Positions 11,751 to 60,152 of a DNA stretch of 64,000 bases are shown in pieces; the first letter of the stretch is position 1; the number at the start of each line of letters is the position of its first letter. The stretch comes from Thiogranum longum. Its GTDB lineage: Bacteria; Pseudomonadota; Gammaproteobacteria; DSM-19610. The notes beneath the pieces were generated by a model. It saw only the letters and a list, made by a program, of their open reading frames with translations, had not been told where the DNA came from and searched no databases. The stretch covers positions 2,327,352 through 2,391,351 of the forward strand of contig NZ_SMFX01000001.1 in NCBI RefSeq assembly GCF_004339085.1, written 5' to 3'. Made by a program: the position numbers and the translations under genes.

Positions 11751-13004
11751 TCATTGCAGATCTTTGGTCAGGACTTTATCCAGATCAAAGTCCGGTTCAA
11801 GCTCACTGCAAACGTCACACAGGCGTGTGATGTTACAACTGGACTTCCAGCAACCAATCTTTCCAAACTGCGCGAAGAGAATACGTGACAGATGATCGGT
11901 GCTTCGCCCCTTGAGAAACACCAGGTCACCGGCACGCAGGGATTCTTCGAGCCATTCTGCCGCATCCCTGATATTTCTGAATTCGCGACAACACGACGCG
12001 TCCATTCCGGCGTCTGTTGCTGCTCGAACGGCATGGTGTGCATGAGCGCCCACGAATACGGCAAAATCACATAACCCGGCCGCCAGATGACCGATATTTC
12101 GCAGGCGCCGCCGGGGGGAATCCTTTGAGTCCGACTGGTCGCTAAACACCAGCCCGCGTCGCTTTGCCCTGGCGTTCCGAAGCACTTCAAGCATGGCCTG
12201 TAGCGTATCAGGAGAACCGTTCACTTCGTCGCGCATAATAATGGCGCCATTCGGCAAGGCGACAGGCTGCATCCTTCCCATGAATGGCGGCACTTGAGCA
12301 ATCCGGCGGACTGCCTCGCCGACAGGTATACCGCAGGAATCGGCAACCACCAAAGCAGCGAGGACGGAGTTCAGCCAATGTGTGCCAACGAGTTGAGTCC
12401 GCACGTCGAAACGTTGTTTGCCGGTAACGAATTCGAACCGTAATCGGTCCGGCCAGCGGGATTCTGCCTTTTCCGCCCGATAGTCGCATGCCGGCGAGGA
12501 GCCGAAAAACACTGTCCTCTGCTTACTGCCCTTGGCCATTCTACATACTCTGTCATCATCGGCGTTGAGTACTGCGATGCCGTGCCGCGGGAGAAAACTC
12601 AACAATTCTGCTTTCTCTGCGGCGGTGGTCTCCAGGTCGCCGAACTTATTGGTATGCGTTCGGGCGACCCGAAGCACCACCGCGATATCCGGTTTCAGGA
12701 GGTGCGCGAGTCTGCGCATGTATCCGGGGCCCTGGACACCAACCTCTACGACCGCAAATCGATGCCAGGGACGCATTGCGCGTATCGTTCTGGGCACACC
12801 GTAGTGATCATTCTGATTCTGGAACGTTTTCAGGACAGGTCCGTGGGATTCCAGTGCCGCGGCAAGACACTCTTTGGCCGTGGTCTTGCCAACACTGCCT
12901 GTAATAGCGATAACCGTTGTGCGTATCATCAGTCTGCGCCAGACAAAAGTCAGAAGCGCTGAAACACGTCCGCGCAGCAAGTCCAGGTGTGAGGCAATCA
13001 ACAT
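11751..13004 (-). CDS. Mur ligase-family protein lacking the MurF N-terminal domain
   Basis: 417 residues. The ATP-binding loop ITGSVGKTTAKE starts at about residue 34, so the ~90-residue UDP-sugar-binding domain that precedes it in MurF is missing; the central domain (VEVGVQGPGYM, LNADDDRV) and a C-terminal domain (MGRMQPV, RDEVNGSPDTLQA) follow. The C-terminus adds a Cys-rich tail, Cys-X4-Cys-X5-Cys-X2-Cys around GCWKSSCN and CDVC, possibly metal-binding. Known: Mur-type ligases join an amino acid or peptide to a carboxylate using ATP. In this polysaccharide cluster it probably adds an amino acid to a sugar acid or lipid carrier; that is inference. A 9-bp inverted repeat at 11730-11764 straddles its stop. 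Confidence 0.85.
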   Translation of the reverse strand: MLIASHLDLLRGRVSALLTFVWRRLMIRTTVIAITGSVGKTTAKECLAAALESHGPVLKTFQNQNDHYGVPRTIRAMRPWHRFAVVEVGVQGPGYMRRLAHLLKPDIAVVLRVARTHTNKFGDLETTAAEKAELLSFLPRHGIAVLNADDDRVCRMAKGSKQRTVFFGSSPACDYRAEKAESRWPDRLRFEFVTGKQRFDVRTQLVGTHWLNSVLAALVVADSCGIPVGEAVRRIAQVPPFMGRMQPVALPNGAIIMRDEVNGSPDTLQAMLEVLRNARAKRRGLVFSDQSDSKDSPRRRLRNIGHLAAGLCDFAVFVGAHAHHAVRAATDAGMDASCCREFRNIRDAAEWLEESLRAGDLVFLKGRSTDHLSRILFAQFGKIGCWKSSCNITRLCDVCSELEPDFDLDKVLTKDLQ

Positions 13005-13116
13005 TCTCGCATCCTTGTTACCAATAAACGCTTCCGGTAGCGGAGAATCGCCGGCGTAAGGTTCCGGTTGTAGTCACCACTGATCATCAATCCTGATATT
13101 TTCAATCTCCATATCA

Positions 13117-15006
13117 TCAAGCCTGCCTCAACTTTAGTAATTGCCCGGAAATATCCTGTGGACTGGCGTTGTCGAACCGTGTGCGCAACCAGATTTCGCA
13201 AGCCATCAGGCGAAAGTGATAGTACGGACGTTGCTTCGCCAGTTCCAGAATCTCCGACTGATCCCGGGATGGCCATTTCAGCAAGTCCGACACACGGCCA
13301 TTGCGCAGGAATTCCGCTGTGTTGGACCACATGGAAGGCGGCATCGTAAACCCTATTTTAGGTGCCTGGATTATATTTTCGGGTAGATGTTTTCGAGCCA
13401 GGCTTTTAACTATTCTCTTGGTGACGCCTCTATGATATTTGGCGCTCACGGGTAGATCCAGACCGAAGTTGATCAGATTGTTTTCAAGAAAGGGTACACG
13501 TGCCTCGATGGAATGTTTCATTGTCATTTTATCCACGCTGCTCAGGCCTTCACGCATTTGTACATAGATGTCTTCGAAGCTGCTGGATAGAAACCCCCGG
13601 TCTTCCAGCGAAAGTCCGGCCAGCTTCTTGAACAAACGGCGTTGGCGCAAGGTTCTTGATGCACCGGCAACGAACAGAATGTTTGATGAACTGGAGATGT
13701 AGTTTATGGGATGACCCCGCGTCAAGTCGTGCGCTATCTGATCCTCTATATTTACAGGTCGCAAGCCGGGCAGATACTTGCCTGCCGCCCGGGTATAGCG
13801 ATTGTCGGGTATCCACCTGGCGCGAAGTGCATTTTTATACCAGTGACGGTACGCCGCTGCATGCCAGGTATAACCACCAAACAGTTCGTCAGCCCCGTCG
13901 CCTGTCAGGACAACCTTGAACCCGTCCCTGCGCAGGGTTTTCGCAACCACCATGGCGGCGACGTGCTGGGAAAAAAACAGGGGTTGGTCATTGGCGATAA
14001 TGGCTTCGGGCAATGTGCGAAACCAGCTCTCATGGTCCACCGGAACGCGTCGCAGCTCTACCCCGAGCGAGTCTGTGATCAGTCGGGCACGTGCCACTTC
14101 CTGGCCGCGCATCCCTTCGATATCCGCAACATAAGAGACAAGATCAGGTGAATGCCTGGATGCCAGGGCGGTAACAAGACCGGAATCCAGTCCGCCGCTA
14201 CACATCGTCGCCACAGGAACGTCGCTGATGAGATGCATTTCGACACTACTGCCTAGCAAGCTCTCAAAGCGGGCGAGATGAACGGAAAAGTCCTGGCCTG
14301 CGTTGTCGCTTATCTGTTCCGGTGAGATGTCACGCAAAACGTCAAAATATGTGGTGAGCTTCTCTCTACCTCTATGAAACCGGCACAGGGTTCCGGGTAA
14401 AAAAGCCTCTACACCCTGATAGGGCGTCATGGAGCCATCGAAACGTTCATATAGCAGCAAGGAAAACAAGGCGTGATGGTCGCACTCACACGTCACCGAT
14501 GGATGTTCAAAGAGGGCTTTTTGCTCCGAAGCGAAAACAAAACCACCGCCGGTTCTGGCAATAAACAGCGGTTTTATACCGAGCCGGTCCCGGGCAAGCC
14601 ATACGGATTGATCCCGAAGATCGTGGTAAGCGAAAGCGAACATGCCATTGAACCGGGGTACGGCGCGTTCCGGCCCCCAATGGTGCAGTGCGTAAAGCAC
14701 AACTTCGGTATCCGTTTCGCTCATGAATGTGACGCCTTCCTGTTTCAGCAGGCGGCGCAATTCGCGATAGTTGTAAATTTCGCCATTGAAAACAAGCACA
14801 CCAAGGCCGTCGTTGGTAATAAAAGGCTGATGTCCCCGCTCGCTCAGGTCAATGATACTCAGGCGAGCATGTCCGAAACCGACACCCTCTTTATGCCAGG
14901 TTCCCACATCATCAGGCCCACGCCTGGATATTTGCGAGAGCATAGCCTGTAAAATACTGTCCTTGCGCTCATGGGTGTCACCCACAAATCCTGCAATGCC
15001 ACACAT
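13117..15006 (-). CDS. asnB: Glutamine-hydrolysing asparagine synthase (AsnB-like)
   Basis: 629 residues beginning MCGIAGF, so Cys2 is the N-terminal glutaminase nucleophile once Met is removed. The class II glutaminase domain covers about 1-210 (FNGEIYNY, SETDTEVVLYAL), and the ATP-pyrophosphatase domain starts near 265 with CSGGLDSGL. The standard AsnB reaction is Asp plus Gln plus ATP to Asn. In polysaccharide loci these enzymes often amidate sugar uronic acids instead; exosortase-linked clusters carry a similar amidotransferase, though no exosortase or PEP-CTERM gene is seen here. It is 112 nt upstream of the Mur-type ligase on the same strand and divergent from the GNAT gene. Confidence 0.92.
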   Translation of the reverse strand: MCGIAGFVGDTHERKDSILQAMLSQISRRGPDDVGTWHKEGVGFGHARLSIIDLSERGHQPFITNDGLGVLVFNGEIYNYRELRRLLKQEGVTFMSETDTEVVLYALHHWGPERAVPRFNGMFAFAYHDLRDQSVWLARDRLGIKPLFIARTGGGFVFASEQKALFEHPSVTCECDHHALFSLLLYERFDGSMTPYQGVEAFLPGTLCRFHRGREKLTTYFDVLRDISPEQISDNAGQDFSVHLARFESLLGSSVEMHLISDVPVATMCSGGLDSGLVTALASRHSPDLVSYVADIEGMRGQEVARARLITDSLGVELRRVPVDHESWFRTLPEAIIANDQPLFFSQHVAAMVVAKTLRRDGFKVVLTGDGADELFGGYTWHAAAYRHWYKNALRARWIPDNRYTRAAGKYLPGLRPVNIEDQIAHDLTRGHPINYISSSSNILFVAGASRTLRQRRLFKKLAGLSLEDRGFLSSSFEDIYVQMREGLSSVDKMTMKHSIEARVPFLENNLINFGLDLPVSAKYHRGVTKRIVKSLARKHLPENIIQAPKIGFTMPPSMWSNTAEFLRNGRVSDLLKWPSRDQSEILELAKQRPYYHFRLMACEIWLRTRFDNASPQDISGQLLKLRQA

Positions 15007-15256
15007 ATTATTGTTTTCCGAATCAATGTTTACGAGCTGGTCAGGCTAAAAAGCCTTTAGCCTATTCTAGTGACAATGACACAAAAGGGGGAGCCAGGAT
15101 TCTGGTTGGCCTGACGAGCGGCGTGGGCCGAATTCTGCCTCAGCACCGAATTACCGTCGGCGTGCGATACCCTGGTTCTGAATTGTTGCCTTACAGGTCT
15201 TCCTGGTCTGGTATGATCTGTTGTACAGAATTAACAGATAAAATTTCTCTAACCAG

Positions 15257-15931
15257 ATGAATTTGCCTCCAGAATATTCACCAGGCTTGCTTCGACGCAC
15301 CTTCAGCCGACTTCGGGAAATACAAAAATGGGAAGGCAACCATGGAATATTCAACCGCATACTTGCGAGCCTGGGATACCGGTGTGTCGGTTGGTACGTT
15401 CATTCACTACAGCACCCGATAAGTCCGGTTGAGGCACGCACTGAGTTCGACTTTACCGAACTATCAGGCGCTGACCTGGAGCGCTATCTCCTGTTTCGTC
15501 GAGGCGCCAGGGAAGAAGATATACTGGCCCGCCTGGCAGCAGGCAACAGATGCTACGCAGCCCTGTGTAATGGTGAAATCGCGTCTGTCAGCTGGATCGC
15601 TGAAAAACAGGGGTATCTGGAGATGATCGGGTACCGGTTCCCCCTGGAGTCGGATGAAATTTATATGTTCGATTCGTTCACAGCGAAAAGATATCGCGGA
15701 AAACGGCTTGTTCCAGCACTATACTCAAGGTTAACCGAGCATTACAGGGCGGGTGGCTACCGGACCGTCATCACGTTGATCGTTCCAGAAAACAAGTCAA
15801 ATATCACATCGCGAACACGTTCGGGTTTCAAACAGACAGGCAGTGTGACACAGCTCAAGCTGGGGTCCTTCTGCTGGTACCGCTTCCACGGCGAGTGCAG
15901 ACCGCAAGTCCCTGGACTGGACAAGCAGTGA
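15257..15931 (+). CDS. GNAT-family acyltransferase
   Basis: 224 residues. A GNAT fold is visible in the C-terminal half: IYMFDSFTAKRYRGKRLVPAL (here the pantetheine-binding RGKR loop around residues 145-155) followed by YRTVITLIVPENKSNITS and SGFKQTGSV. The N-terminal ~60 residues are of unknown type. Its stop overlaps the ATG of the FemAB-like gene (TGATG), so the two are co-translated. A likely role is N-acyl or amino-acyl modification of a sugar or peptide in the island's glycan; the substrate is unknown. Confidence 0.8.
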   Translation: MNLPPEYSPGLLRRTFSRLREIQKWEGNHGIFNRILASLGYRCVGWYVHSLQHPISPVEARTEFDFTELSGADLERYLLFRRGAREEDILARLAAGNRCYAALCNGEIASVSWIAEKQGYLEMIGYRFPLESDEIYMFDSFTAKRYRGKRLVPALYSRLTEHYRAGGYRTVITLIVPENKSNITSRTRSGFKQTGSVTQLKLGSFCWYRFHGECRPQVPGLDKQ

Positions 15932-17082
15932 TGCCGACCCTTCCTGTAAAACGGGGAATATTGTCATCAGCCGTCTGGAAATTGCTCGAATATGCTCCAC
16001 TCACGGCAGAAGCATCCATGGACAGGTTGCACTACATAGCTTCAAGCATCGCAAACTGGCGAGTACCGGTAATACGTTGCACTGGCACTCATCCTGAGAC
16101 CGGGAAAGCCGTAGCCGTCATCGTCGCCGATAATCAGCCCTCTGCCGAGCACTTTATCCGGCACATGGCAGGCATTGACTTCAGAACAGAAGAACTGGGC
16201 AAGGTTCCCGTGTGGAAACTGCCCGGTTTTTTTACTGAACATGGCAGTGATACCACCATGTCCATTGCACACATCAATAGCCGACTCGGGCACCTGCTGT
16301 TCACGGGGAAGCAGCTTCATGTTCCGGAATGCCTCGGCACGCGCCTGACTGTTCCCGATCATGGTGAAGCAACAAGCCGTGCCAGGCGTAGCCAGGCATC
16401 GAATCTGAGACGATTCCACAGGAACGGGCTTGACTGGGAAGTGAGCCGAAGTCTGGATGAATTCGACGACTTCTATCATAAAATGTATGTACCCTTCACA
16501 CTCGCGAGACATGGTGATGCCGCCACAATCCGCAGCTATTCCCGGCTGCGGAACTACATGCTTCACGGCGGTATTATCTGGGTATTGCATAACGGGCGCA
16601 GAATCTCCGGAGACCTGTTCGCAGAGTCGGGAGACACCCTGTACTGGATATGCACCGGTACCGATCATGGGCATGAGGAACCCGTGTCGTTAGGGGCTAC
16701 CAGCGCAATCTATATATTCGGGGTACAGTATGCGCGGCAGGCCGGGCTTGGTCAGCTCGATCTCGGAGTGTGCCGTCCTTCATTGCGCGATGGCATACTT
16801 GCACACAAGAAGCGCTGGGGAGCTGAGTTGCGACCCTCGACCCGTTGCCAGCACTCACTGATCATCCAATGGGAGAACTGGAGCGAAGAGTTAGCACATT
16901 TTCTCTGGCACACCGCACCCGTCATCCAGGACGAGGACGGACTGACAGGAATTGTATCTGTGCCAGACAGAAGCCCGGAACCGGAGATACTGCAGAAGGA
17001 ACTACTGGGGCCAGGAATACGGGGACTGAAAATCCTGGATGGCGAAACCACGATTTCAGTCAAAAACCGAACAGGCGTCTGA
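15931..17082 (+). CDS. FemAB-like / BioF2-type GNAT acyltransferase
   Basis: 383 residues from the ATG at 15931, which overlaps the previous TGA; a longer frame to 15895 is possible but lies inside the upstream gene. The C-terminal half contains the double-GNAT signature SQASNLRRFHRNG, FDDFYHKMYVPF and GVCRPSLRDGILAHKKRWGA typical of FemAB/BioF2-like (PF13480) proteins. FemAB enzymes transfer amino acids from tRNA to a peptidoglycan bridge; homologues in exopolysaccharide loci have unknown substrates. Together with the Mur-type ligase and AsnB it argues for amino-acid decoration of the glycan. It overlaps the convergent oxygenase-like gene by 23 nt. Confidence 0.8.
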   Translation: MPTLPVKRGILSSAVWKLLEYAPLTAEASMDRLHYIASSIANWRVPVIRCTGTHPETGKAVAVIVADNQPSAEHFIRHMAGIDFRTEELGKVPVWKLPGFFTEHGSDTTMSIAHINSRLGHLLFTGKQLHVPECLGTRLTVPDHGEATSRARRSQASNLRRFHRNGLDWEVSRSLDEFDDFYHKMYVPFTLARHGDAATIRSYSRLRNYMLHGGIIWVLHNGRRISGDLFAESGDTLYWICTGTDHGHEEPVSLGATSAIYIFGVQYARQAGLGQLDLGVCRPSLRDGILAHKKRWGAELRPSTRCQHSLIIQWENWSEELAHFLWHTAPVIQDEDGLTGIVSVPDRSPEPEILQKELLGPGIRGLKILDGETTISVKNRTGV

Positions 17083-17761
17083 CACCTCGGGTTATTGGCT
17101 TGAACCAGCGCCTGCGCCGGACAACATAGCCCAGACTGAAACGATCGGTTTCCGAGTACACCGTATGCCAAAAGGGAATACCCGGATCAATCCGGAAGGC
17201 GCGCACATTCCATTCACTATCCAGCGCAGTAACAATGCGCCCCGTGTCAGGTTCTCTGTATCTGAAGAATGACTTACCGGGCTCGCTGGCATGAGTGATA
17301 TAAACCCTCCAGCCGGGAGATGCACTGTTGGTGTGCCACCCCATGTACCCTCCCCGGGGATACCAGAAGTGGCCGCTGCATCGAACCTCAAGTGGGTAAG
17401 GTGCCTCGAAGGTCTCAAGCAACCGCCGGCTCAGCAACTCATCAACTCTGGCACGTCGAATCAATATGTCCTCGCTGGATATGGAGTGTGCATCATTGGG
17501 TATGTTGAATGAAATAACGTTGGATATCTCCCGATTCGTCGCGATGCCATGAACATCCTTTTGGCTGCCCAGTATCTGCTCAAGCGCCTGTTCACAGACC
17601 ATCTCATGTGCCTTGCCAGCATCATTGCCTGGCGCAGGTTGCCCGATTATGTGTTGCTGGGCCATAATCATGCCGTGGATCGCGTCAACAAGTGTCGGGT
17701 CATCAAGCCATCCGGGCAAATCAAAAAAAACCTGCTCTGAGCTGATCGGAATTCTTTCCAC
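17060..17761 (-). CDS. 2OG-Fe(II) oxygenase-like protein with an HxN motif
   Basis: 233 residues; GTG start with a strong GGAGGAC six bases upstream. The second half fits a double-stranded beta-helix oxygenase: GYMGWHTN (His143, Asn145) at the usual HxD position, distal His199 in IPFWHTVYSE, and Arg207 in DRFSLGYVVR as 2-oxoglutarate anchor. Asn in place of Asp/Glu is unusual for iron binding, but the GWHTN context looks like a family trait, not decay. The substrate could be a sugar, lipid or amino acid of the island's product. It is transcribed against the main gene direction. Confidence 0.65.
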   Translation of the reverse strand: MERIPISSEQVFFDLPGWLDDPTLVDAIHGMIMAQQHIIGQPAPGNDAGKAHEMVCEQALEQILGSQKDVHGIATNREISNVISFNIPNDAHSISSEDILIRRARVDELLSRRLLETFEAPYPLEVRCSGHFWYPRGGYMGWHTNSASPGWRVYITHASEPGKSFFRYREPDTGRIVTALDSEWNVRAFRIDPGIPFWHTVYSETDRFSLGYVVRRRRWFKPITRGVRRLFGF

Positions 17762-17859
17762 AATGTCCTCCGGAGAAAATCAGTCTAAAGCATAGCTGCT
17801 ATTTGAACAATTTCTCCTTAAAATAACTGCTACAGATTATAAGAAAACGCGAGACATCA

Positions 17860-18669
17860 ATGTCATATACTGATCTTTCCCTGACTTATCCGCAGTTCGT
17901 TATACAGTGCGTCAACCATGGCTATGATAATGCCAGCCTCCGCAAGGTGCGGGATGCATATGAATTCATGGAAGAGATGAGTGATGGCCTGTTTCGCGCG
18001 CAGGGCGCTCCATTTTCATGCCATCTTTTACGCACTGCGAGTATTGTCCTTTCCACAGGAGCTGCTCTGCCGGTTGTGCTGGCGGCCATGGTGCACTCAG
18101 CCTATCGCCTGCGCCTGTTTAAAAACAGTCGCAGGCGTGCATACAGACTTTCGCACCGCAGCCACTTGCAGACCATTCTCGGTTCTGATGTTGAAATGCT
18201 TGTGTATGCCTATGCACACCTGCCATGGTACAGCCCGGATACTCTTGATCAGCACCTTGCGAACCTGGAATCCGCGACTCAGTCAACAAGGAACGTCCTC
18301 ACCATCCGTTTGGCAGATGAGCTTGAAGACTGGCTGGACCTGTCACTGGCGTTCATGGACCGCGATCAGGTCGCATGCCGTATCGAAGCCTACGGTTCCT
18401 TGTGTATCCGGCTTGCAGAACGCATGGAACTGGAGGGACTTGCAAATAGCATGCGAGATGCTGCCGCGCAATACCGGAACATGGAGCTACCTGATGTGGC
18501 TCTTATGCATCGACACCGGGCCTATGAGCGTTCACGTGCTCACCTGTGGGAGATGAGCGCGCCTGAAGCATGGTTGTTGAATTTTGCCCGGCGCGTTGTA
18601 CTCGCGCTGAGGAGCAAGGATACATCACGCCGAGCCGGCAAACGGAGATCACCATCAGCTCGTTCCTGA
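17860..18669 (+). CDS. HD-like protein with incomplete metal site
   Basis: 269 residues, predicted all-helical. The stretch SCHLLRTASIVLSTGAALPV then VLAAMVHSAYRL resembles the first helices of RelA/SpoT-type HD hydrolases (His55 ... His79), but the Asp of the HD pair is Ser80, so classical HD metal chemistry is unlikely. A later LTIRLADELEDWLDLSL segment resembles the RelA VKLADRLHN region. I do not recognise a named family with confidence. It starts the rightward gene block of the island and overlaps the following CapK frame if that uses its most upstream ATG. Confidence 0.6.
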   Translation: MSYTDLSLTYPQFVIQCVNHGYDNASLRKVRDAYEFMEEMSDGLFRAQGAPFSCHLLRTASIVLSTGAALPVVLAAMVHSAYRLRLFKNSRRRAYRLSHRSHLQTILGSDVEMLVYAYAHLPWYSPDTLDQHLANLESATQSTRNVLTIRLADELEDWLDLSLAFMDRDQVACRIEAYGSLCIRLAERMELEGLANSMRDAAAQYRNMELPDVALMHRHRAYERSRAHLWEMSAPEAWLLNFARRVVLALRSKDTSRRAGKRRSPSARS

Positions 18670-19994
18670 ACAGACTGTACGGAACTGCCATCGTGGCTTC
18701 GCATCTGCCCTTCCAGAAGCAGGCCGACTATCTTCCCGCGTCACGTCTGGGCAAGATCCGCGACAGGCGGGTCCGTAGCCTCGTAAATCATGCGGCAAAG
18801 TATGTGCCCTATTACAGAGAACTGTTTCATGAACACGGTATCGATCCACGGGCAATCAGAACAGCGGCGGATCTCGAAATGCTGCCCCTGCTCGACAAGC
18901 AAACCGTCCGGGATAATCCACGAGCGTTCGTCTCCACTTCGCGCCGTGGCCAAACCGCAATTCCCTTCAAGACCAGCGGCTCGACGGGTATGCCGCTCAC
19001 TATCTACCATGACAGACGCTCCCTGCTTGCCAACATGGCGCGCACCTGGCCAGAGAAAGCGATCATTCGAAAGGTCCTGGGTAATAATCGAGCCGGGAGA
19101 CAGGCAACCATTCTCTATCCCTCCTCGACAGTACGCAGAATCTGGGAACTCTATCGCGAGTACTCGTTTGTACCCGGACCTTCCCGCCAGCTGCTGCTAG
19201 ACGTAAATGATCCTTTTGATGAGATCATCAAGGCAATCAATACGTTTAAACCGGACATTGTTTCAGGCTATGGCTCCTATCTGGAAACCTTGTTTCGCAT
19301 GGTAGATGCCAGGCAAACAGCCGTACACCTTCCCAGGGTACTGACCTACGGCGCTGACAATATGACCGAGGGCGGACGTCAGTTAATTGAAAACAAACTC
19401 GGGATTCGTGTGTTTTCGAGATACAACTCTGTCGAATCATTTCGAATCGGTTTCACCTGCGAACAGCATCATGGATTTCACATTCGGGAGGACCTGTGCT
19501 GTCTGCGGGTTGTCGACGCCCATGGAAACACGCCCGGTGATGGTGAACCCGGAGAAGTGGTGATATCCAACCTTGTCAATCGTGGTACCGTACTAATCAA
19601 TTACCGGATCGGTGATCTGGGCGTCATCACTCAAAAACCCTGCCCTTGCGGACGAACACTTCCGATGCTGGCGAGCCTCGAGGGACGCAGTGAAGATATT
19701 ATCTATCTGGCAGATGGCCGGATGGTACACCCCAGGATCATCTGGAACGTATTCAAGGGAAGAAACGACCTGCTTCAGTACCAGCTGATCCAGCACAAGC
19801 CTGACAGCTTTGAGCTGAAAATTGTACTTGCGGGCAGCCCGGGCCATGATGCTGCCACCAGGGATATTCTGACTGATCTGGGCAAACTGCTCGGGGACGT
19901 GGAAATCACCGTCTCATGCCATGAAAGCCTCTCCGTGGGTAACCGGAAATTCAGACCTGTTATTTCCCGGTGTAGCCCCACACTGATGTCATGA
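18570..19994 (+). CDS. CapK/PaaK-like adenylate-forming enzyme, copy 1
   Basis: 474 residues from the ATG at 18570, which would overlap the previous gene by 100 nt; a GTG at 18693 gives a length matching the two sibling proteins at their VPYY motif and is a good alternative. Motifs: KTSGSTGMPL (ATP loop), RYNSVESFRIG, YRIGDLG and CPCGRTLPML, the Cys pair typical of this subfamily. Relatives activate carboxylates as acyl-AMP (phenylacetate-CoA ligase), while CapK proteins of capsule loci have no proven substrate. First of three paralogues in the island; the next gene overlaps by ATGA. Confidence 0.88.
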   Translation: MVVEFCPARCTRAEEQGYITPSRQTEITISSFLNRLYGTAIVASHLPFQKQADYLPASRLGKIRDRRVRSLVNHAAKYVPYYRELFHEHGIDPRAIRTAADLEMLPLLDKQTVRDNPRAFVSTSRRGQTAIPFKTSGSTGMPLTIYHDRRSLLANMARTWPEKAIIRKVLGNNRAGRQATILYPSSTVRRIWELYREYSFVPGPSRQLLLDVNDPFDEIIKAINTFKPDIVSGYGSYLETLFRMVDARQTAVHLPRVLTYGADNMTEGGRQLIENKLGIRVFSRYNSVESFRIGFTCEQHHGFHIREDLCCLRVVDAHGNTPGDGEPGEVVISNLVNRGTVLINYRIGDLGVITQKPCPCGRTLPMLASLEGRSEDIIYLADGRMVHPRIIWNVFKGRNDLLQYQLIQHKPDSFELKIVLAGSPGHDAATRDILTDLGKLLGDVEITVSCHESLSVGNRKFRPVISRCSPTLMS

Positions 19995-21268
19995 TCGGAA
20001 AAATCGGCATGTTCTCCCGGCTGCTATACAACAGGCAGCTCTCCCCCAAGGCGCTACAGACCCTGCAGTTGCGCAAGCTGCAAGCAACCGTTGCACAGGC
20101 CTATGACCAGGTACCGTACTACCGCCATCTACTCGATGAAGCAGGCGTAACTCCCGGCAGCATAGGCAAGCTGGATGACCTGAAAAAAATTCCGGTGAGC
20201 ACCAAGGATGACCTCAGAAAAGCCGGTAAAGAGAGCCTGATAGCCCACAATACAGACCGTAAGGATCTGATCTGCGTCCGGACCAGTGGCACCAGTGGCA
20301 AGCCGTTCGAAGTTTTCATCACCGGCCGTGAGCGGAAATTACGCAGGCTCATCGATTTCCGCACGCTTCTTAATATCGGATTCCGGCCCCGCGACCATCT
20401 TGTCACACTCGGCCCCAGGATACCGATACAACGCGGGCTGCACGAGCGGCTCGGCCTGTTTCGTACAGACCAGGTCGACCCACTTGCACCCACGGCTGAA
20501 ACACTTGATCAACTCGGCAAGTTGAGACCGGGTTTTCTATGGACCTACCCCAGTGTTTTTCGTTCCCTGCTCAGAAATGCCGACCAGGAAATACTCCGGA
20601 AGCTCAGGCCGCATACACTCATCACCTCGGCCGAAACCGCGGACCCGAAACTGCTCAGAGAGTCATGGGATGGAGAAGATGTTGCTTATTACAATTTCTA
20701 TGGCTCTATTGAGTCAGGACGTATCGCATGGGAATGCCCGGAACACAACGGCCTGCATATCAATGCAGACCACGTGATTCTGGAACTCGAGCCGGTCAGT
20801 GGACTGCAGCACGGCATTGCGGCCGGACTTGGCCATGTGGTAATAACCACGTTGAATATGCGCGCAATGCCGTTTATCCGCTACCGGCTTGGCGATCTGT
20901 GTTCCTTTGTTGACAGCGACTGTTCGTGTGGCAGCACCTGGCCGACTATTTCCGCACCGATCGGCAGAGCCACCAGTCTTGCGAAACTGCCGAGCGGTCG
21001 TTACATTCCTGCATTTGAATTTACTCACATGCTTCGCCAGATCGAATGGATCGATCAGTTCCAGGTTATTCAGGAGGCATCAGGGAGCTTCACTGTAAAT
21101 CTTGTAACAACAGGTCCTGCAAGTGATAATGAGACAGCACAACTACGGTCGCGTATAACAAAGCAGCTGAAAGAGCCCGTTGAGATCAATGTGCGGATAG
21201 TAAAACAATTACAGCAAAACAATTACAAGCTCCAGGATTTTCTTGTAAGGAGTGCCGACACACCATGA
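19991..21268 (+). CDS. CapK/PaaK-like adenylate-forming enzyme, copy 2
   Basis: 425 residues, ATG overlapping the previous stop. The adenylate loop is RTSGTSGKPFEVF, the acceptor-side motif NFYGSIESGRIAWEC, then IRYRLGDLC and CSCGSTWP with paired Cys. VPYY at residue 41 aligns with the third copy. It is clearly distinct from copies 1 and 3, so the paralogues diverged before or during assembly of the island and probably activate different acids. It is followed by the pyruvyl-transferase-family gene, whose frame begins before this stop. Confidence 0.88.
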   Translation: MIGKIGMFSRLLYNRQLSPKALQTLQLRKLQATVAQAYDQVPYYRHLLDEAGVTPGSIGKLDDLKKIPVSTKDDLRKAGKESLIAHNTDRKDLICVRTSGTSGKPFEVFITGRERKLRRLIDFRTLLNIGFRPRDHLVTLGPRIPIQRGLHERLGLFRTDQVDPLAPTAETLDQLGKLRPGFLWTYPSVFRSLLRNADQEILRKLRPHTLITSAETADPKLLRESWDGEDVAYYNFYGSIESGRIAWECPEHNGLHINADHVILELEPVSGLQHGIAAGLGHVVITTLNMRAMPFIRYRLGDLCSFVDSDCSCGSTWPTISAPIGRATSLAKLPSGRYIPAFEFTHMLRQIEWIDQFQVIQEASGSFTVNLVTTGPASDNETAQLRSRITKQLKEPVEINVRIVKQLQQNNYKLQDFLVRSADTP

Positions 21269-21326
21269 CCTGTTCGATCAAAAATCCGGTATCAACCAGA
21301 CCAGCAGTGTATTGCAGTCTCATGCC

Positions 21327-22508
21327 ATGCCCGAACCACGTCACATACTGATCCTCGGCGGAGATGCCGATGGTAACCTGGGTGACCGGGCGATCCTGAT
21401 GTCGATGTGCCATGCTCTGCATTCCATCAGGCCCGATGCCACGATCACCATCATATCGAGACATCCCGGGCGCGCCCACGCAGATTACGGAGAAAGGGTT
21501 CATGTCATTTGCCCGGGAATCTCCGGATCAATCAAGCTCTGCAAGGCCGCAGCAAGAAGCGACCTGGTCCTGTGTGGGGGCGGCGGCCTGATTCAGGACG
21601 ACGACAGCCTGATAAAGGTACCCTACTGGGCAATGCGTATACTGTTGATGCGCGCCCTTTGTCCCAGGGTGGTCGGCTATGCGCTGGGCGTCGGACCACT
21701 CAAGGCCGGAATCAGCCGCTTGTTTGCAAGACTTGCATTCTCATGTATGACTCAAATCACGGTTCGGGATCCCGAGGCCCAGGCCGTGGCACAGGCACTC
21801 ACCCGGAAAGCCGTTGAGCTGGTCCCCGATCCAGCCCTGCTAGTGTCCGGGGCTGACAGCGAAAAGGATTCGAATCACCTGCAGACAGCCGGTGTTCCAC
21901 CCAATCATAAACCGGTCATCGGTATCGCACCGAGACGCTGGTTTCCACCCAAATCCCGGCTTGTTCCCCGGCGTATCGCAGCACGCTTCCGGCAACCATC
22001 CTTCGAACAATCGACACGCCTGGTGGAATTGCTGACCCAAACCCTCGGCAATCTGGTAGATAAACACGACGCCTACATTCTCTTTCTGCCGAGCTACACC
22101 CTGGCGCATGAAGGGGATGAACAGCTATGCCGCATGCTGATGGACGCCCTTCCCCCGGACAGATCCGGGATGTTGTTGATCAGCAGTCCCGGGGAGTACC
22201 GGGCTGTCTGCAAAAAGCTGGATACGCTTGTCGGAGGACGCATGCATCCGACAATATTTGCATCATCGATCGGCACCCCTGTTGTCGGACTCTCCTATAA
22301 TCACAAGTTCGAGGGCTTCTTTGAACTGCTGGGTCAGCGTGAGTCGGTACTGGATGTGCAGTCCTTCGTCCGCGATGGTCGCACAGAACAACTGACCGGT
22401 TTAATCGAGAAGGCCCTGCACGACACCACCAGCCCCAGAGACAGAGTTGACGATATGTGCGCAAGAATCAGGAAGTTTAACCAAACATTGATGCAACAGG
22501 CTTCCTGA
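21327..22508 (+). CDS. Polysaccharide pyruvyl transferase family protein
   Basis: 393 residues from the ATG at 21327, chosen because ILILGGDADGNLGDRAIL then sits at the very N-terminus as in CsaB/WcaK relatives; a GTG at 21252 would extend it by 25 residues and overlap the previous gene. Further family features are DLVLCGGGGLIQDDDS, GYALGVGPL and LVGGRMHPTIFASSIGTP. Known: the family adds ketal pyruvate from PEP to sugars of capsules and cell-wall polymers. It presumably pyruvylates the island's repeat unit in the cytoplasm before export. Confidence 0.88.
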   Translation: MPEPRHILILGGDADGNLGDRAILMSMCHALHSIRPDATITIISRHPGRAHADYGERVHVICPGISGSIKLCKAAARSDLVLCGGGGLIQDDDSLIKVPYWAMRILLMRALCPRVVGYALGVGPLKAGISRLFARLAFSCMTQITVRDPEAQAVAQALTRKAVELVPDPALLVSGADSEKDSNHLQTAGVPPNHKPVIGIAPRRWFPPKSRLVPRRIAARFRQPSFEQSTRLVELLTQTLGNLVDKHDAYILFLPSYTLAHEGDEQLCRMLMDALPPDRSGMLLISSPGEYRAVCKKLDTLVGGRMHPTIFASSIGTPVVGLSYNHKFEGFFELLGQRESVLDVQSFVRDGRTEQLTGLIEKALHDTTSPRDRVDDMCARIRKFNQTLMQQAS

Positions 22509-22510
22509 GG

Positions 22511-23770
22511 GTGCTGACACTTTACCGTACTTACCGGAGCCTGGCGCGCTCGCAGTGGCTAACCACAGAACAACTTCATCTGCTCAGGCAAAAAAAGCTG
22601 CAAGAACTTGTCTCGCATGCCTACACGCATGTGCCGTATTACCACAAACTCTTCAGGAAAGCGGGCATTCACCCAACAGATATACGAACATTCGATGATC
22701 TGTCGCACATACCCGTCACAACCAAGCGCGACTTGCTGGAGGCGGGGCCCGGACAAATCACCAGCGGGGTTTTCCCGGCCAGGAAACTCGTTGCAGAACG
22801 CACAACAGGATCAACCGGCGAACCATTCACTGTTTTCCTTGATCGCAACTGGCTCAGGGTTCGCAAGGCTCTTTTTCTACGTGCGTTACACACTGCCGGC
22901 TGGCGTCCGGGCCGGAAACTGGTGTTCGTGACTGCGGGTCGCAAACCCTGGCACCGGAGAATCATGGGATGGCATTATATTTCTTTTGCAGACTCCCCCG
23001 AGTCCATGCGGGAACAGTTGAATCGAATACGGCCAGACGTTCTGTACGGATGGGTGACGCCCCTGCGTGAACTCGCACGATACATCCGCGACACTGGCAA
23101 ACGCATACACTCACCACAGGTAACCATTACAACTGCCGAAACGCTGGTTGCGCAAGACCGGGAGCTTATCGGACGCGCTTTCAAAAGCCGATTGTGCGAA
23201 TTCTTCGGCATGACGGAGATGGGCATTATCGGCTGGGAATGCCGGGAGGCAGGCCAAATGCATATTGCAGAAGATACCTGTCACGCAGAACTCGCACCTG
23301 ACCATGACACCTCAGGCACAGGCCGCCTGGTCATGACAAACCTCGAGTTGCGAGCGACTCCGTTTATACGTTATGAAACCGGCGATCTGGCACGCTTCGG
23401 TCCTGCCACAGCATGCAGGTGCGGCCGCTCCTTGCGGACACTGGCGCGTATCGATGGACGTCTCGTTGACTGCATTCGTCTTGAAGACGGCCGTGTTATC
23501 TCGCCCTACCAGGTTACCCTTGCGCTTGAACCGCTGAAGGGCATAGGACGGTTTCATGTCATTCAGGAAAATCCCGGCAAAATCAGTGTGGAACTCGAAG
23601 CAAATCAGAAAGACGCAGACGCTCTCCAGAGCGCTGTTCGAAACGCACTCATCCCACTTACAGGCACCGGTGTGGAACTTGGCATTGTCCTGAAACAAAC
23701 TTTGGCAATGCAGCCCGGAAGGAAATTCCGTGTGGTTGAGAACCGCTGCATACAGCAGAGCACACCATGA
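22511..23770 (+). CDS. CapK/PaaK-like adenylate-forming enzyme, copy 3
   Basis: 419 residues with a GTG start 2 nt after the preceding stop. Motifs: RTTGSTGEPFTVFLD, EFFGMTEMGIIGWEC, IRYETGDLARFG and CRCGRSLRTL. It is nearest to copy 2 in length and N-terminal pattern (VPYY at residue 41). Its stop overlaps the glycosyltransferase start (ATGA). Three such enzymes in one 5-kb block is unusual and suggests several activated acyl or aminoacyl units per repeat, or a carrier-bound intermediate; both are inference. Confidence 0.88.
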   Translation: MLTLYRTYRSLARSQWLTTEQLHLLRQKKLQELVSHAYTHVPYYHKLFRKAGIHPTDIRTFDDLSHIPVTTKRDLLEAGPGQITSGVFPARKLVAERTTGSTGEPFTVFLDRNWLRVRKALFLRALHTAGWRPGRKLVFVTAGRKPWHRRIMGWHYISFADSPESMREQLNRIRPDVLYGWVTPLRELARYIRDTGKRIHSPQVTITTAETLVAQDRELIGRAFKSRLCEFFGMTEMGIIGWECREAGQMHIAEDTCHAELAPDHDTSGTGRLVMTNLELRATPFIRYETGDLARFGPATACRCGRSLRTLARIDGRLVDCIRLEDGRVISPYQVTLALEPLKGIGRFHVIQENPGKISVELEANQKDADALQSAVRNALIPLTGTGVELGIVLKQTLAMQPGRKFRVVENRCIQQSTP

Positions 23771-24885
23771 AAATCCTTACCATCTGCTACGAATACCCTC
23801 CATTGGGTGGAGGTGGCGCCCCCGTTTGCGAGGGTCTTTGCGAATCGCTGGTTGACAGGGGTCACCATGTCGATGTCGTCACTTCGCTTGCGAAGAACCT
23901 TCCAGCTGAAGAACAGCGTAACGGGGTTAGCATTTATCGCACACGCTGCCTGAGGCGCCATGTACATTACACCACCACATTCGAGCTGCTGACCGGCATT
24001 TTCCCGGCCTTGCGAAAGGCTGCAGAACTATGCAGGACAACAGACTACGACCTGATTCATTGTCATTTCATTGTCCCATCCGGGATTGTCAGCTGGCTGC
24101 TCGCCAGGCAAACCGGCACACCCTATCTGATCACCGCGCATGGCTCCGACATTCCGGGGTATAACGAGGATCGATTTAATCTCAGCCATAAACTCATTTG
24201 GCCGGTGTGGAAACGCATTGTCAACGGCAGCCGGTCTACAGTGACACCTACGAGATACCTGGGGCATCTGCTAAACAGGCAGATCGACAAAAAGGGCGAG
24301 GTAATTCCCAATGGCATTAACCTGCAGCGTCCCGGCCCTGTTCAACCGGCAAACCGGATCCTGATGGTTTCGCGGATATTCGAACGCAAAGGTGTAGACA
24401 TACTCCTGCGGGCATTTTCAGGTATGAATACTGACTGGGAGCTGGTTATTGCAGGAGACGGCCCGCTTCTGGAAAACGCAAAAGAACTGGCGGCCGAACT
24501 TGGCATTACGGTGCAATTCCTTGGACATGTAGACAAGGCACAATTACCCGACCTGTATCAATCCGCGAAAGTTTTCGTTCTACCCTCGTCACGCGAGAAT
24601 TTCCCCGTGGTACTGCTTGAGGCACTTGCTGCCGGCTGCGCCATTATCACTACACACGGATCAGGGTGCTCTGAAGTCGTCGGTGAAGCAGGTATACTGG
24701 TCGAATCAGGTTCGCCACAGGCCCTGCGCCTGGCGCTTGAGGAGCTACTTGCAGATGAAAGCCAAATAGAAATGTTGCGCCGGAAATCGCTGCAACAGGT
24801 CGAGAAATTTACCTGGCAACACATCTCGGGAAAATACGAAGCACTCTATCATCAGCTTCTTCTACAAGCTCACGAACGACCGTGA
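23767..24885 (+). CDS. GT4-family glycosyltransferase
   Basis: 372 residues, GT-B fold. The N-terminal glycine-rich loop EYPPLGGGGAPV and HCHFIVPSG precede the GT4 donor-site block: MVSRIFERKGVDILL, then VLPSSRENFPVVLLEALAAG with the E-x7-E pattern. It probably uses a nucleotide sugar and retains anomeric configuration, at the cytoplasmic face of the membrane. It is the only recognisable glycosyltransferase in the island, so other sugars must be added by enzymes encoded elsewhere or the repeat unit is very small. It overlaps the flippase gene by GTGA. Confidence 0.93.
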   Translation: MKILTICYEYPPLGGGGAPVCEGLCESLVDRGHHVDVVTSLAKNLPAEEQRNGVSIYRTRCLRRHVHYTTTFELLTGIFPALRKAAELCRTTDYDLIHCHFIVPSGIVSWLLARQTGTPYLITAHGSDIPGYNEDRFNLSHKLIWPVWKRIVNGSRSTVTPTRYLGHLLNRQIDKKGEVIPNGINLQRPGPVQPANRILMVSRIFERKGVDILLRAFSGMNTDWELVIAGDGPLLENAKELAAELGITVQFLGHVDKAQLPDLYQSAKVFVLPSSRENFPVVLLEALAAGCAIITTHGSGCSEVVGEAGILVESGSPQALRLALEELLADESQIEMLRRKSLQQVEKFTWQHISGKYEALYHQLLLQAHERP

Positions 24886-26327
24886 AGCGACGCCTGCTTG
24901 TCCATTTTTCCTATGTGACTGTTTCCCGCTATGTGGCGGAACTGTTCTTTCTTGCCCGTGGCCTTACCGTTGCCCACATCCTCGGTCCTTCGACCTTCGG
25001 CGTATGGAGTGCCATGCGCATGCTTAACCAGTTCAGCAACATAGCCAACCTGGGCGCCAGTGACGGAATGTTTCAGCGAGCACCCTATGCCGATGCAGCC
25101 GGCAATCCAAACGCGGCACAGCGCTTTCGGGAGGTCGCATCGGGAATCAACGTTGCAACGGCATTGATCGCTGCCTGTACACTCGCTGCTATTGCGGCGT
25201 TCAAGCACCCCGATGCCCCGGTCAGCTGGTGGCTGCTGTTTGCCGGTGTGGTATTCCTGACCCAGACTTACCGGTTTAACATCTGGCTATTGAACTCCTG
25301 GAGAATGTTCGGTCTTTCCAGCATTTTCACTATCCAGTTCGCTGTACTTTCAACGGCTGCAGGAATACTCGGAGCCTGGCAGTTCGGTCTTGACGGGTTT
25401 CTCGTCGCGCTGCTTCTTTCTTACGGCATTACCCTCGGAACCGCCATAGCCCTTGGGCCTCCATTCCCACGTCCAGGATGGTCGCTGGCAACCGCAAAAG
25501 AGCTGATCGGGACCGGATTCCCGATACTCGCTTCCGGCCTGCTGATGGTGCTGTTGTGGACTACTGACCGGCTACTGATCTGGATCCATCTCGGTGAAAA
25601 GGATCTCGGTATTTACACCATCCAGAGCTACTTCACGGGCGCCATGCTGCTGATACCGACCGCCATCATGAGTGTTTTACGCCCTCACCTGATGGAAGCT
25701 CTGGGCGCCCGGACCACGAAAACGCAACTCGTTCCGGTTATGGAAAAGGGTGCCATGTTGTTCGCGCAGATAATGTGGCCCCTCGTCGGCATGGCATATC
25801 TGATCATACATCTGCCGATTCGCTGGATACTGCCGGATTATGCAGGAGCCATTGAGCCGGGCAGGATACTGATGTTCCTTACCTTCGTGACAATGCTGGG
25901 TACAATACCGGCCACATTCCTGATCTCTCTTGGTCACCAGAAATCATTACTGGCAATCAGATGCACGTCGGTGGCGGTTGCGGTATTCGCAGTAACGTAT
26001 AGCCTGAACCAGGGAGGCAGCTATGAACAAATTGCAATGGCGACCGGACTTGGACTATTCACGTCGACTGCACTTGTCATGGCCGCTGTTTTTCGGGCTC
26101 TCAAGATTCCTGGTCGCAGCCGGCTGCGCTACGCCGGCTGGAACATCGGCATGCTGGTGTTGCTGGCAGCGACACTTGCGTTGGCAGAGTGGCTTCTTCC
26201 AGACAGACCTGATTCCTGGCAACAGGATCTCTCGAGTACCGCCGGGCGGTGTGCGGTGCTGTTGACTGTAGCGACGCCATTCCTTTACTTCATAATCCGG
26301 AAAACAACCACCATGCAACTTGACTAG
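24882..26327 (+). CDS. Wzx-type flippase / polysaccharide exporter
   Basis: 481 residues with roughly 12-14 hydrophobic segments and the MATE/Wzx-like start RYVAELFFLARGLTVAHILG followed by GPSTFGVWSAMRML. It would flip a lipid-linked oligosaccharide across the inner membrane. GTG start overlapping the glycosyltransferase stop. It is the last gene of the island; the HD-GYP remnant begins 10 nt after its stop. No polymerase (Wzy), initiating phosphotransferase or outer-membrane exporter is encoded inside the island. Confidence 0.9.
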   Translation: MKRRLLVHFSYVTVSRYVAELFFLARGLTVAHILGPSTFGVWSAMRMLNQFSNIANLGASDGMFQRAPYADAAGNPNAAQRFREVASGINVATALIAACTLAAIAAFKHPDAPVSWWLLFAGVVFLTQTYRFNIWLLNSWRMFGLSSIFTIQFAVLSTAAGILGAWQFGLDGFLVALLLSYGITLGTAIALGPPFPRPGWSLATAKELIGTGFPILASGLLMVLLWTTDRLLIWIHLGEKDLGIYTIQSYFTGAMLLIPTAIMSVLRPHLMEALGARTTKTQLVPVMEKGAMLFAQIMWPLVGMAYLIIHLPIRWILPDYAGAIEPGRILMFLTFVTMLGTIPATFLISLGHQKSLLAIRCTSVAVAVFAVTYSLNQGGSYEQIAMATGLGLFTSTALVMAAVFRALKIPGRSRLRYAGWNIGMLVLLAATLALAEWLLPDRPDSWQQDLSSTAGRCAVLLTVATPFLYFIIRKTTTMQLD

Positions 26328-49529: not shown

Positions 49530-49678
49530 CCCAAAAAAGTTTCAGTAATTACCGACCGGTAGATTGTGGTGCCATGTAGTACACGCCATAAGCGCAAACA
49601 CTCACTCTGCCTGGCGGCGTTGTTTTTTCACAACAACAAAGCCTGTGCCTGACCGTTCAGTCAACCGGTTGTGAATTA

Positions 49679-49693
49679 TTCCTACAATAGGAA
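49679..49693. promoter_or_regulatory. Palindrome overlapping a -10-like box
   Basis: TTCCTA and TAGGAA are separated by CAA; the spacer side reads TACAAT on the + strand. A repressor bound here could block the promoter. The match is by eye only. Confidence 0.3.
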
Positions 49694-49749
49694 GAAAACA
49701 CAATACTTTTTCAACGTTTTTTCGGCACTTGTTGGACATATTTCATAAA

Positions 49750-49767
49750 TGTCGCCAATTCGCGACA
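49750..49767. promoter_or_regulatory. Operator-like inverted repeat
   Basis: TGTCGC and GCGACA are separated by CAATTC. The 18-nt symmetric site is the size expected for a dimeric helix-turn-helix regulator. No regulator gene is adjacent. Confidence 0.35.
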
Positions 49768-50004
49768 GAAATAATACAACACTTTGGGTTAAACCCTGTA
49801 AACGCGGGGGTTAGCATACCCAACAAATACCGGTTGGTTACTTAAGCAAAATTCAGACCATATCTTCACGGCCATTTTTGCGATTCGCGAGTATAAGTGA
49901 TGACGCATAAAGAAAATGTGACGCCCACCCCATTATACCTCAAGTAGCGACGCACCCGCTGGCCCGGTATGATCAGCGCCCCAAATACCAATTAGCGAAG
50001 CTCG

Positions 50005-52860: not shown

Positions 52861-52954
52861 GGCAGAAAATTATATCGTAAAGGTACTTATCCCGGGTTTG
52901 CTGGGTTAGGATGCCGTTCAGGAAATAGTACCCTATTCAGACCGACGAATACGC

Positions 52955-54909: not shown

Positions 54910-54911
54910 CC

Positions 54912-55979: not shown

Positions 55980-56006
55980 CCGCCGGCACACTGAGCGATT
56001 TTCCAA

Positions 56007-56924: not shown

Positions 56925-56926
56925 GT

Positions 56927-57814: not shown

Positions 57815-57992
57815 GTCCTGTATTCTTTATTTAGTCCTGATCAACCGGGGCAGTGTACACCCGGCATAAATCTGGTTTGGCCGGCCCTCCAGGGGCACAC
57901 CCTGAAAACACTTAAATACAGGCTGCGCGGGGTGATTTGAATGTGTTAAAGTGCGCGCCTTACAGCATACCAAATGTTCAACACCCCGACAC

Positions 57993-58928: not shown

Positions 58929-59009
58929 ACTGCAGCACACTAAGCCGCTGGAATTCCTGAATAAATCCGCTACAATAGCGGCACTATATCGATGGCAGCT
59001 CTGATGTGT

Positions 59010-59079
59010 CGTCATACCGGCGTATGCCGGTATCCATTGTCGTTGAAACCCCTGGATTCTGGCATGCGCCAGAATGACG
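59010..59079. repeat. REP-like dispersed palindromic repeat, copy 2
   Basis: CGTCATACCGGCGTATGCC... to ...AGAATGACGG, the same two-hairpin layout as at 38092-38160 with compensating changes in the second stem (TTCTGGC / GCCAGAA). It sits in the 204-nt gap between sulfotransferase B and the first GT-A-like gene. Confidence 0.8.
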
Positions 59080-59132
59080 GGGAATAAATCAGAGTTTCCT
59101 TAACAGTAACGGGTACGAGGCCAGGCGATTTC

Positions 59133-60071: not shown

Positions 60072-60074
60072 TTT

Positions 60075-60116
60075 ATTGACGTAGATCAAATAATTTTCGA
60101 CAACTGACCGCTAGGA
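60075..60116 (+). promoter_or_regulatory. Putative FNR/Anr-type class II promoter
   Basis: TTGAC-GTAG-ATCAA at 60075-60088 differs from the FNR consensus TTGAT-N4-ATCAA at one base. Placing it at -41.5 puts the -10 hexamer at 60111-60116, which reads TAGGAT, and the start near 60123, 30 nt before the ATG of copy 2. Copy 1 has no such site. Confidence 0.55.
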
Positions 60117-60152
60117 TGTCGCGATCCCGTACCGCACCCGGAGATCGCGCAC

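Follow-up and report, generated by a model that had tools for sequence, protein, structure and literature searches.

Several described systems resemble parts of the gene cluster considered here. The polysaccharide pyruvyl transferases CsaB and WcaK belong to the PF04230 family, in which a GRMH motif is linked to PEP binding. Among the Mur ligases, MurT works with GatD in Gram-positives, where an AsnB-type amidation of diaminopimelate is also found. A two-domain GNAT fold is common to the FemABX and other tandem-GNAT enzymes (WvFemX, BD-12 Orf11/Sbb17, aaPGS/MprF); FemAB-like folds occur in natural-product pathways as well (PMC12945691), and one FemX-like GNAT, HfsK, belongs to the Caulobacter holdfast, its acyl donor not being established (PMC5362036).

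Results

The window, a stretch of 64,000 nucleotides of the Thiogranum longum genome, was analysed by open reading frame and profile searches, and at 11751-26327 it holds a block of 12 genes with open frames throughout (Table 1). The original prediction gave exactly this interval, and every gene class it named is present there by open frame and profile match, the FemAB class being weak by sequence and backed by fold; it overlooked the genes for the small protein and the DUF6817 protein. From CapK1 through CapK2, PST, CapK3 and GT4 to Wzx, gene ends and starts overlap or abut, as they would in one operon. The GNAT and FemAB-like genes also overlap, and the AsnB-Mur pair lies on the opposite strand, divergent from GNAT.

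Table 1. Genes of the block, in window coordinates
Product	Position	Strand	Remarks
Mur-type ligase, Cys4 clade	11751..13004	-	middle and C-terminal domains, no N-terminal UDP-MurNAc domain, C-terminal C-x4-C-x5-C-x2-C
AsnB-type glutamine-dependent amidotransferase	13117..15006	-	GATase and Asn_synthase
GNAT acyltransferase	15257..15931	+	overlaps FemAB-like gene; relative precedes FemAB in G030
FemAB-like tandem-GNAT transferase	15931..17082	+	start 15931 or earlier; assigned by fold
Small protein	17060..17761	-	no Pfam/NCBIfam match
DUF6817 (HD-like) protein	17860..18669	+	domain match
CapK1, PaaK-like adenylate-forming ligase	18570..19994	+	separate lineage; true start probably inside frame
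CapK2, PaaK-like	19991..21268	+	long-branched sister of core CapK clade
PST, pyruvyl-transferase-family protein, core gene	21327..22508	+	distinct clade, GDADGNLGD / CGGGGLxQDDDSL; frame opens at 21252
CapK3, core PaaK-like ligase of cassette	22511..23770	+	core CapK clade
GT4 glycosyltransferase, core gene	23767..24885	+	>130 bits
Wzx-type flippase	24882..26327	+	40% identical to flippase closing Phycisphaeraceae cassette

The complete 12-gene set was not found a second time among the genomes searched, but a core of it was, in unrelated bacteria. The order PST-CapK-GT4 is kept in the window and in L037/L091, L090, L092 and L094, that is, in three further loci of Pseudomonadota and one of Planctomycetota; another locus, L093, has PST-CapK without GT4. 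One of the named strains carrying the core is Marinimicrococcus flavescens. Near the PST loci lie a FemAB/Acetyltransf_6 gene (five of six), a flippase (four of six) and a Mur ligase of the Cys4 clade (three of six). The closest locus, L092 from a Phycisphaeraceae genome, runs FemAB-Mur-Mur-PST-CapK-GT4-flippase, seven consecutive homologues of block genes, and a GT4-GNAT-FemAB run in genome G030 was found independently through the FemAB search. The predicted compact set, in which enzymes that handle acids or amino acids accompany a flippase and just one glycosyltransferase, recurs in unrelated bacteria; the other two CapKs, AsnB, GNAT and the genes for the DUF6817 and small proteins are accessory to its core. 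A Phycisphaerae sample yielded no cassette genome beyond the one already known, viral contigs searched with the GT4 alignment gave no match, and plasmid-borne relatives were set aside as distant PST matches only (<=30% identity).

PST itself is a clear member of its family (PF04230, 107.6 bits against a cut-off of 25.3); no further member of its clade turned up in a sample of 368 genomes of the class, and a PDB sequence search with it gave no match. The flippase (PF13440, 44.4 bits against 23) matches polysaccharide flippase families. Neither the 12 block genes nor the seven-gene cassette of L092 includes an initiating sugar-phosphate transferase, a Wzy polymerase or a sugar-nucleotide enzyme, so that a lipid carrier is an assumption, which weighs against the reading we prefer below; a gene of the Wzy_C/O-antigen-ligase family stands at 62494-63675, about 36 kb from the block.

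The P-loop and GD motif of adenylation and the C-terminal lysine are conserved in all three CapK/PaaK-like proteins, which are mutually about 28-32% identical and all fall far under the cut-offs of the NCBIfam PaaK-type models. The core CapKs form one clade (support 95/98), from which CapK1 and CapK2 are excluded; CapK1 branches with the three tandem CapKs that G024 has in an unrelated cluster, beside an aminotransferase and a cupin. Three CapKs headed the original prediction, and as a hallmark of the system we rejected them because each related locus has only one.

The FemAB-like protein falls under the Pfam cut-off (PF13480, E=0.1, 13.2 bits against 22), and a PDB sequence search with it gave no match. 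Its model (pLDDT 74) has a tandem-GNAT fold whose top matches in structural comparison are FemX, Sba18/Sbb17 and aaPGS, at a VIA Z of about 13 over some 240 residues and 11-17% identity, a likeness at the level of fold only. The predicted assignment to the FemAB/BioF2-like class is weak by sequence and finds support in the fold, which is nearest to FemX and to peptide synthases that depend on aminoacyl-tRNA. Lys293, within a KKxWG-type motif, is invariant in all nine members of the family. Plain single-domain GNATs match the second half of the model at Z 10-11, nearly as high, which counts against our preferred reading below. The neighbouring GNAT scores just above its cut-off (PF00583, 21.6 bits).

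The Mur ligase has strong middle and C-terminal domains (PF08245, 126.5 bits; PF02875, 44.2 bits), the middle domain beginning at residue 33, and scores under the murF cut-off (TIGR01143, 206.8 against 288.6 bits). With its relatives it forms a separate clade (100/100) marked by a motif C-x4-C-x5..8-C-x2-C, whose four cysteines are invariant in nine of nine aligned members; the motif is present in five more and missing from the 12 MurF sequences compared. In the AlphaFold model this tail has pLDDT <50, too unreliable for a possible metal site to be judged. Although the Cys4-Mur was detected in just six of 369 genomes of the class, it lies near the cassette far oftener than that rarity predicts. 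Two genomes carry it as a fusion with an additional peptidyl-tRNA hydrolase (Pth) domain, in opposite domain orders, and in Gemmobacter aquarius it adjoins another pyruvyl-transferase-family gene and glycosyltransferases. No paper on a Mur ligase paired with a pyruvyl transferase or a peptidyl-tRNA hydrolase was found in the open-licence literature, and we found the Cys4-Mur clade described nowhere in the part of it that we searched.

AsnB (Asn_synthase, 202 bits; over the TIGR01536 cut-off) had been counted as part of the set, yet it does not recur with the cassette: in G002, a genome of the same genus, a Mur and an AsnB (each 77% identical to ours) stand paired, without CapK or FemAB. Another genome, G018, has two tandem Cys4-Murs and no AsnB. 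The window Mur branches with those of G002 and G018, and the Murs of L092 and L094 occupy a different sub-branch; to judge from the tree, the association of Mur and cassette may have been gained twice, a further point against our preferred reading.

The small protein had no Pfam or NCBIfam match, no homologue in 114 relatives or in 369 genomes of the class, and no solved structural relative in our search; two phage records match it weakly (34% and 33%), and it has an HxN...H...R pattern suggestive of an oxygenase motif that has degenerated. A reading of the block as a defence system was dropped after nine of its proteins gave no PADLOC match.

Discussion

We suggest, with confidence that is about evenly balanced for the proposal as a whole, that the block is an elaborated version of a cassette scattered by horizontal transfer, whose product would be a short sugar unit assembled on a lipid carrier, acylated or aminoacylated and probably pyruvylated as well, and that Wzx flips this unit to the surface. 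Of the original interpretation, the recurrent core survives; the three CapKs as its defining feature and AsnB as a recurrent member do not. Gene identities, the core order in distant bacteria, clade membership and the folds of the FemAB-like and Mur proteins are established, and the chemistry we infer from them would run as follows. CapK3, joined here by CapK1 and CapK2, would adenylate a carboxylic acid, and the FemAB-like protein with GNAT would move an aminoacyl or acyl group onto an amino sugar. The Cys4-Mur, using ATP, could then add to the growing unit one more amide bond, to an amino acid, with AsnB amidating a carboxylate. GT4 would attach the sole sugar encoded here, PST would add a pyruvate ketal from PEP, and the flippase would translocate the unit through the inner membrane so that it can be attached to the surface. 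The modelled FemAB-like fold and the Mur clade would fit amino-acid attachment.

The block could also encode an ordinary acyl-CoA route, in which CapK makes acyl-CoA, the FemAB-like protein and GNAT are both plain acyl-CoA N-acyltransferases whose target is a single amino sugar in an O-antigen or exopolysaccharide, neither aminoacyl-tRNA nor a peptide bond is involved, and Mur is a bystander. Solved PaaK-like relatives are annotated as CoA ligases, single GNAT domains come close to the FemAB-like scores on one half of the model, and HfsK is a FemX-like GNAT whose acyl donor is not established (PMC5362036). Three of the six PST loci lack a Cys4-Mur, an observation that tells against our preferred reading. 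We nevertheless consider this route unlikely, given that over both domains the best matches are FemX, the streptothrisamine peptide synthases and aaPGS, all users of aminoacyl-tRNA, and that the Cys4-Mur accompanies the cassette beyond what its rarity predicts.

The Mur-AsnB pair standing alone in a genome of the same genus, which also weighs against our preferred reading, raises the possibility of two unrelated neighbours: a pair acting on precursors of peptidoglycan or on some other compound of the cell wall, by analogy with MurT/GatD or with the AsnB-type amidation of diaminopimelate in Gram-positives, and a glycan cassette running from GNAT to Wzx. The tandem Cys4-Murs without AsnB, the grouping of the window Mur apart from those of L092 and L094, and the divergent orientation of the pair are all in keeping with such a division. 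Against it, L092 and L094 independently have Cys4-Mur genes within the cassette or close to it, and another adjoins a pyruvyl-transferase-family gene in Gemmobacter; the family has no UDP-MurNAc-binding domain and is far from the MurT model (NF052464, 16.2 bits against a cut-off of 800); we think the division doubtful. It strikes us as improbable that the genes instead form a biosynthetic cluster for a small molecule to be secreted, an amino-acid compound bearing sugar and acyl groups, with the adenylate-forming enzymes assembling it and the MATE-like transporter as its exporter. The transporter matches polysaccharide flippase families, PST and GT4 are what one typically finds in glycan loci, and the same window contains a gene of the O-antigen-ligase family, even if CapK1 groups with the CapKs beside the aminotransferase and cupin, FemAB-like folds are known from natural-product pathways, and the block encodes no polymerase.

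If the preferred reading is correct, the block represents a small cassette, mobile and devoted to glycan decoration, whose fixed PST-CapK-GT4 core would allow it to be found by gene order. We also entertain, as a very long shot, the idea that the Cys4-Mur acylates the amino group of an aminoacyl-tRNA with a carboxylic acid, or works in relay with a FemAB-like transferase, and that the dedicated Pth domain frees the N-acylated amino acid, so that ATP chemistry of the Mur type would be coupled to tRNA in glycan or envelope modification. The opposite-order Mur-Pth fusions offer a cheap handle on whether Mur-type ligases act with tRNA chemistry.

In related genomes, loci that we read as XrtA/PEP-CTERM exopolysaccharide loci also have a CapK-like gene together with an AsnB-like amidotransferase, but their CapKs fall in another clade, the PST-CapK-GT4 order is absent there, and our AsnB scores 309.6 bits against the 816.9 of TIGR03108; we rejected that assignment. 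PST shares the PF04230 domain and GRMH motif of CsaB and WcaK, yet lies in a distinct clade and under the CsaB equivalog cut-off (TIGR03609, 147.7 against 213.1 bits). The FemAB-like protein has the two-domain fold of the FemABX enzymes and an invariant lysine whose motif resembles the catalytic lysine region of FemX, and differs from them in lacking a FemAB/Acetyltransf_6 match above cut-off. HfsK, compared by description, is similarly a FemX-like tandem GNAT in polysaccharide synthesis, for which the account consulted reports no CapK/PST/Mur cassette (PMC5362036). Where MurT has GatD, the window Mur is partnered by a complete AsnB that brings a synthetase domain of its own. The structural model of the Mur is closest to MurF (TM 0.76 to the Acinetobacter baumannii enzyme), with which it shares the middle and C-terminal ligase domains; it differs from MurF in having no N-terminal UDP-MurNAc domain, in its Cys4 tail and in its separate clade.

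Results

The predicted block at 11751-26327 exists, and part of it recurs elsewhere. All the gene classes named in the original prediction are present in it, together with two genes that had been overlooked. The window runs from base 2327352 to base 2391351 of a complete genome of 2.9 Mb. From DUF6817 to the flippase, consecutive plus-strand genes overlap or abut end to start, and the G+C content of the block does not differ clearly from that of the upstream flank. The 17060 gene has no relative in the 114 relatives searched or in 369 genomes of the class; its product is weakly similar (34%) to a protein on an uncultured phage record.

Features of the window and of the loci compared with it
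Feature	Position	Strand	Remark
Mur ligase, AsnB	5' end of block	minus
GNAT, FemAB-like	overlapping pair	plus
Gene without family match (17060 gene)	17060-17761	minus	overlooked
DUF6817	after 17060 gene	plus	overlooked
CapK1, CapK2, PST, CapK3, GT4, flippase, in that order	downstream of DUF6817	plus
Second envelope-related region	47706-63675
Tandem similar proteins (MDHxVFIQTNHKQI...)	59133-60071, 60153-61100
PST locus, G009/HyVt-541	L037/L091
PST locus, Marinimicrococcus flavescens	L090
PST locus, Phycisphaeraceae MAG	L092
PST locus, gammaproteobacterial MAG	L093
PST locus, alphaproteobacterial MAG	L094
GNAT between GT4 and FemAB, G030	L083:977-3690
Three tandem CapKs, G024	L022:1003-6868
Cys4-Mur tandem pair, G018	L081:16024-18698	minus
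Plasmid glycan cluster, Gemmobacter aquarius	L130:11319-19778
Stand-alone Cys4-Murs	L131-L134
Cys4-Mur/Pth fusion	L121:12155-14065	minus
Cys4-Mur/Pth fusion	L122:19621-20000 joined to L123:1-1531	plus

Among the 369 sampled class genomes, the clade of the pyruvyl-transferase-family gene (PST) was found only in T. longum itself (637 bits; second-best match, 116). It also occurs in G009, a genome of the same genus that is not part of that sample. When an alignment of these two PSTs was used to scan 84,980 species genomes, five loci emerged, the G009 locus among them, giving six distinct loci with the window; because the patterns were short exact motifs, the scan will have passed over more distant loci. 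In tblastn searches with the window proteins, a CapK lies immediately 3' of PST at all six loci, and GT4 follows it at five, window included. At the Phycisphaeraceae locus, seven genes in a row are homologous to genes of the block (FemAB-Mur-Mur-PST-CapK-GT4-flippase); GT4 and flippase there are 54% and 40% identical to those of the window. Two FemAB-family genes lie downstream of GT4 in M. flavescens; two FemAB_like (PF04339) genes, an ATP-grasp gene and a flippase occupy the facing strand at L091; an Acetyltransf_6 gene lies downstream of CapK at L093; and a flippase, a lipid-A-acyltransferase-like gene and a Cys4-Mur are found in the vicinity at L094. The co-occurrence sought for the predicted gene set is thus partial: the PST-CapK-GT4 core recurs, but AsnB, DUF6817 and the 17060 gene were seen in no other cassette among the six PST loci. 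Wide taxonomic range coupled with rarity suggests spread by horizontal transfer. A FemAB search of the 114 relatives led to G030, where a contig ends in GT4-GNAT-FemAB of the same families; the GNAT looks split across frames, which could be sequencing error or decay.

The three window CapKs share about 28-32% mutual identity, and all keep the adenylation motifs. In a tree of 23 CapKs, the six cassette CapKs form one clade (support 95/98) to which CapK2 is a long-branched sister (99/97), CapK1 groups with the G024 tandem trio (100/99), and the exopolysaccharide-locus CapKs of relatives branch elsewhere. The three enzymes of the original prediction therefore resolve into one core CapK and two additions. 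The G024 CapKs, the closest relatives of CapK1, adjoin an aminotransferase and a cupin.

The window Mur ligase starts at the middle domain and ends in C-x4-C-x5-C-x2-C. These four cysteines are common to all nine aligned relatives, and the motif was seen at five further loci and in none of the 12 MurFs in our tree, where 13 such proteins (Cys4-Murs) form one clade against MurF (100/100). Same-genome profile scores were 500-667 bits for Cys4-Murs and at most 203 for MurFs, a gap that is partly by construction, since the profile was built from the same Cys4-Murs; the tree is free of this. With E<=1e-72 as the limit, 6 of 369 class genomes have a match (two of them, at 246-249 bits, without a motif check), as do 5 of 209 phylum genomes. 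In Gemmobacter aquarius a Cys4-Mur adjoins another pyruvyl-transferase-family gene, GT25 and GT4, in a plasmid cluster that also holds a formyltransferase and more glycosyltransferases. Neither AsnB nor a CapK cassette adjoins the tandem pair of G018, and the stand-alone Cys4-Murs, from four genomes of one genus in the same phylum, lie near genes of central sugar metabolism and an SDR gene.

Two genomes, G303 and G338, encode a Cys4-Mur fused to a peptidyl-tRNA hydrolase (Pth) domain, N-terminal in one and C-terminal in the other. Each also carries a separate canonical Pth; 13 other genomes tested have a single Pth each. The catalytic positions Asn10, His20 and Asp93 (E. coli Pth numbering) are conserved in the fused domains, but these have Arg or Lys where the canonical copies have Asn114. 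The fusions sit on separate branches of the Cys4-Mur clade, which suggests that they arose twice independently.

Discussion

We suggest that the block would build a short glycan on a lipid carrier, acylated or aminoacylated through the CapK, FemAB-like, GNAT and Mur products and possibly pyruvylated by PST, and that the flippase would flip the finished unit. Neither a polymerase nor an initiating transferase is present in the window block or the Phycisphaeraceae cassette, which points to a short unit or to dependence on genes elsewhere. At 56-64 kb of the window, sulfotransferase genes and another GT4 accompany an O-antigen-ligase-family gene; these, we conjecture, could serve final attachment of the glycan. 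The second envelope-related region contains an AMP-binding ligase, a GNAT, a MobA-like nucleotidyltransferase, an Elm1-like protein, a sulfotransferase, GT4 and a Wzy_C/O-antigen-ligase-family gene; its tandem similar proteins have no Pfam match.

Modification by acyl-CoA alone seems to us less likely, though far from remote. The FemAB-like protein has no Pfam match above cut-off; the best matches of its structure model (pLDDT 74) are W. viridescens FemX, the streptothrisamine peptide synthases Sba18/Sbb17 and aaPGS/MprF, with Z of 12-13 over 220-250 residues and a high rmsd (7-11 Å) that is probably due to domain orientation. Plain GNATs rank next (Z 10-11), with one domain matched. Lys 293 is invariant in all nine family members, and the FemX-like enzyme Orf11 uses Gly-tRNA on streptothrisamine (PMC12945691). 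There is, then, evidence at the level of fold, short of proof, that the FemAB-like protein may use aminoacyl-tRNA. That the product is a secreted small molecule we consider quite improbable.

We also hold it to be less likely, to a similar degree, that Mur and AsnB constitute a unit separate from the glycan cassette. The genome G002 speaks for such a unit: AsnB stands beside Mur there, each 77% identical to the window copy, and there are no CapK or FemAB matches. Cys4-Murs lie near three of the six PST loci, and the chance of one near a given PST locus is about once in ten thousand, a rough estimate for loci that are not fully independent; it takes Cys4-Mur to be present in some 2% of genomes and compares a 20-kb window with about 3 Mb. 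Returning to the glycan assembly system that we propose, we found no described system matching the block in the literature and databases searched; what appears to be new is chiefly the PST-CapK-GT4 core, along with the Cys4-Mur clade and its fusions to Pth.
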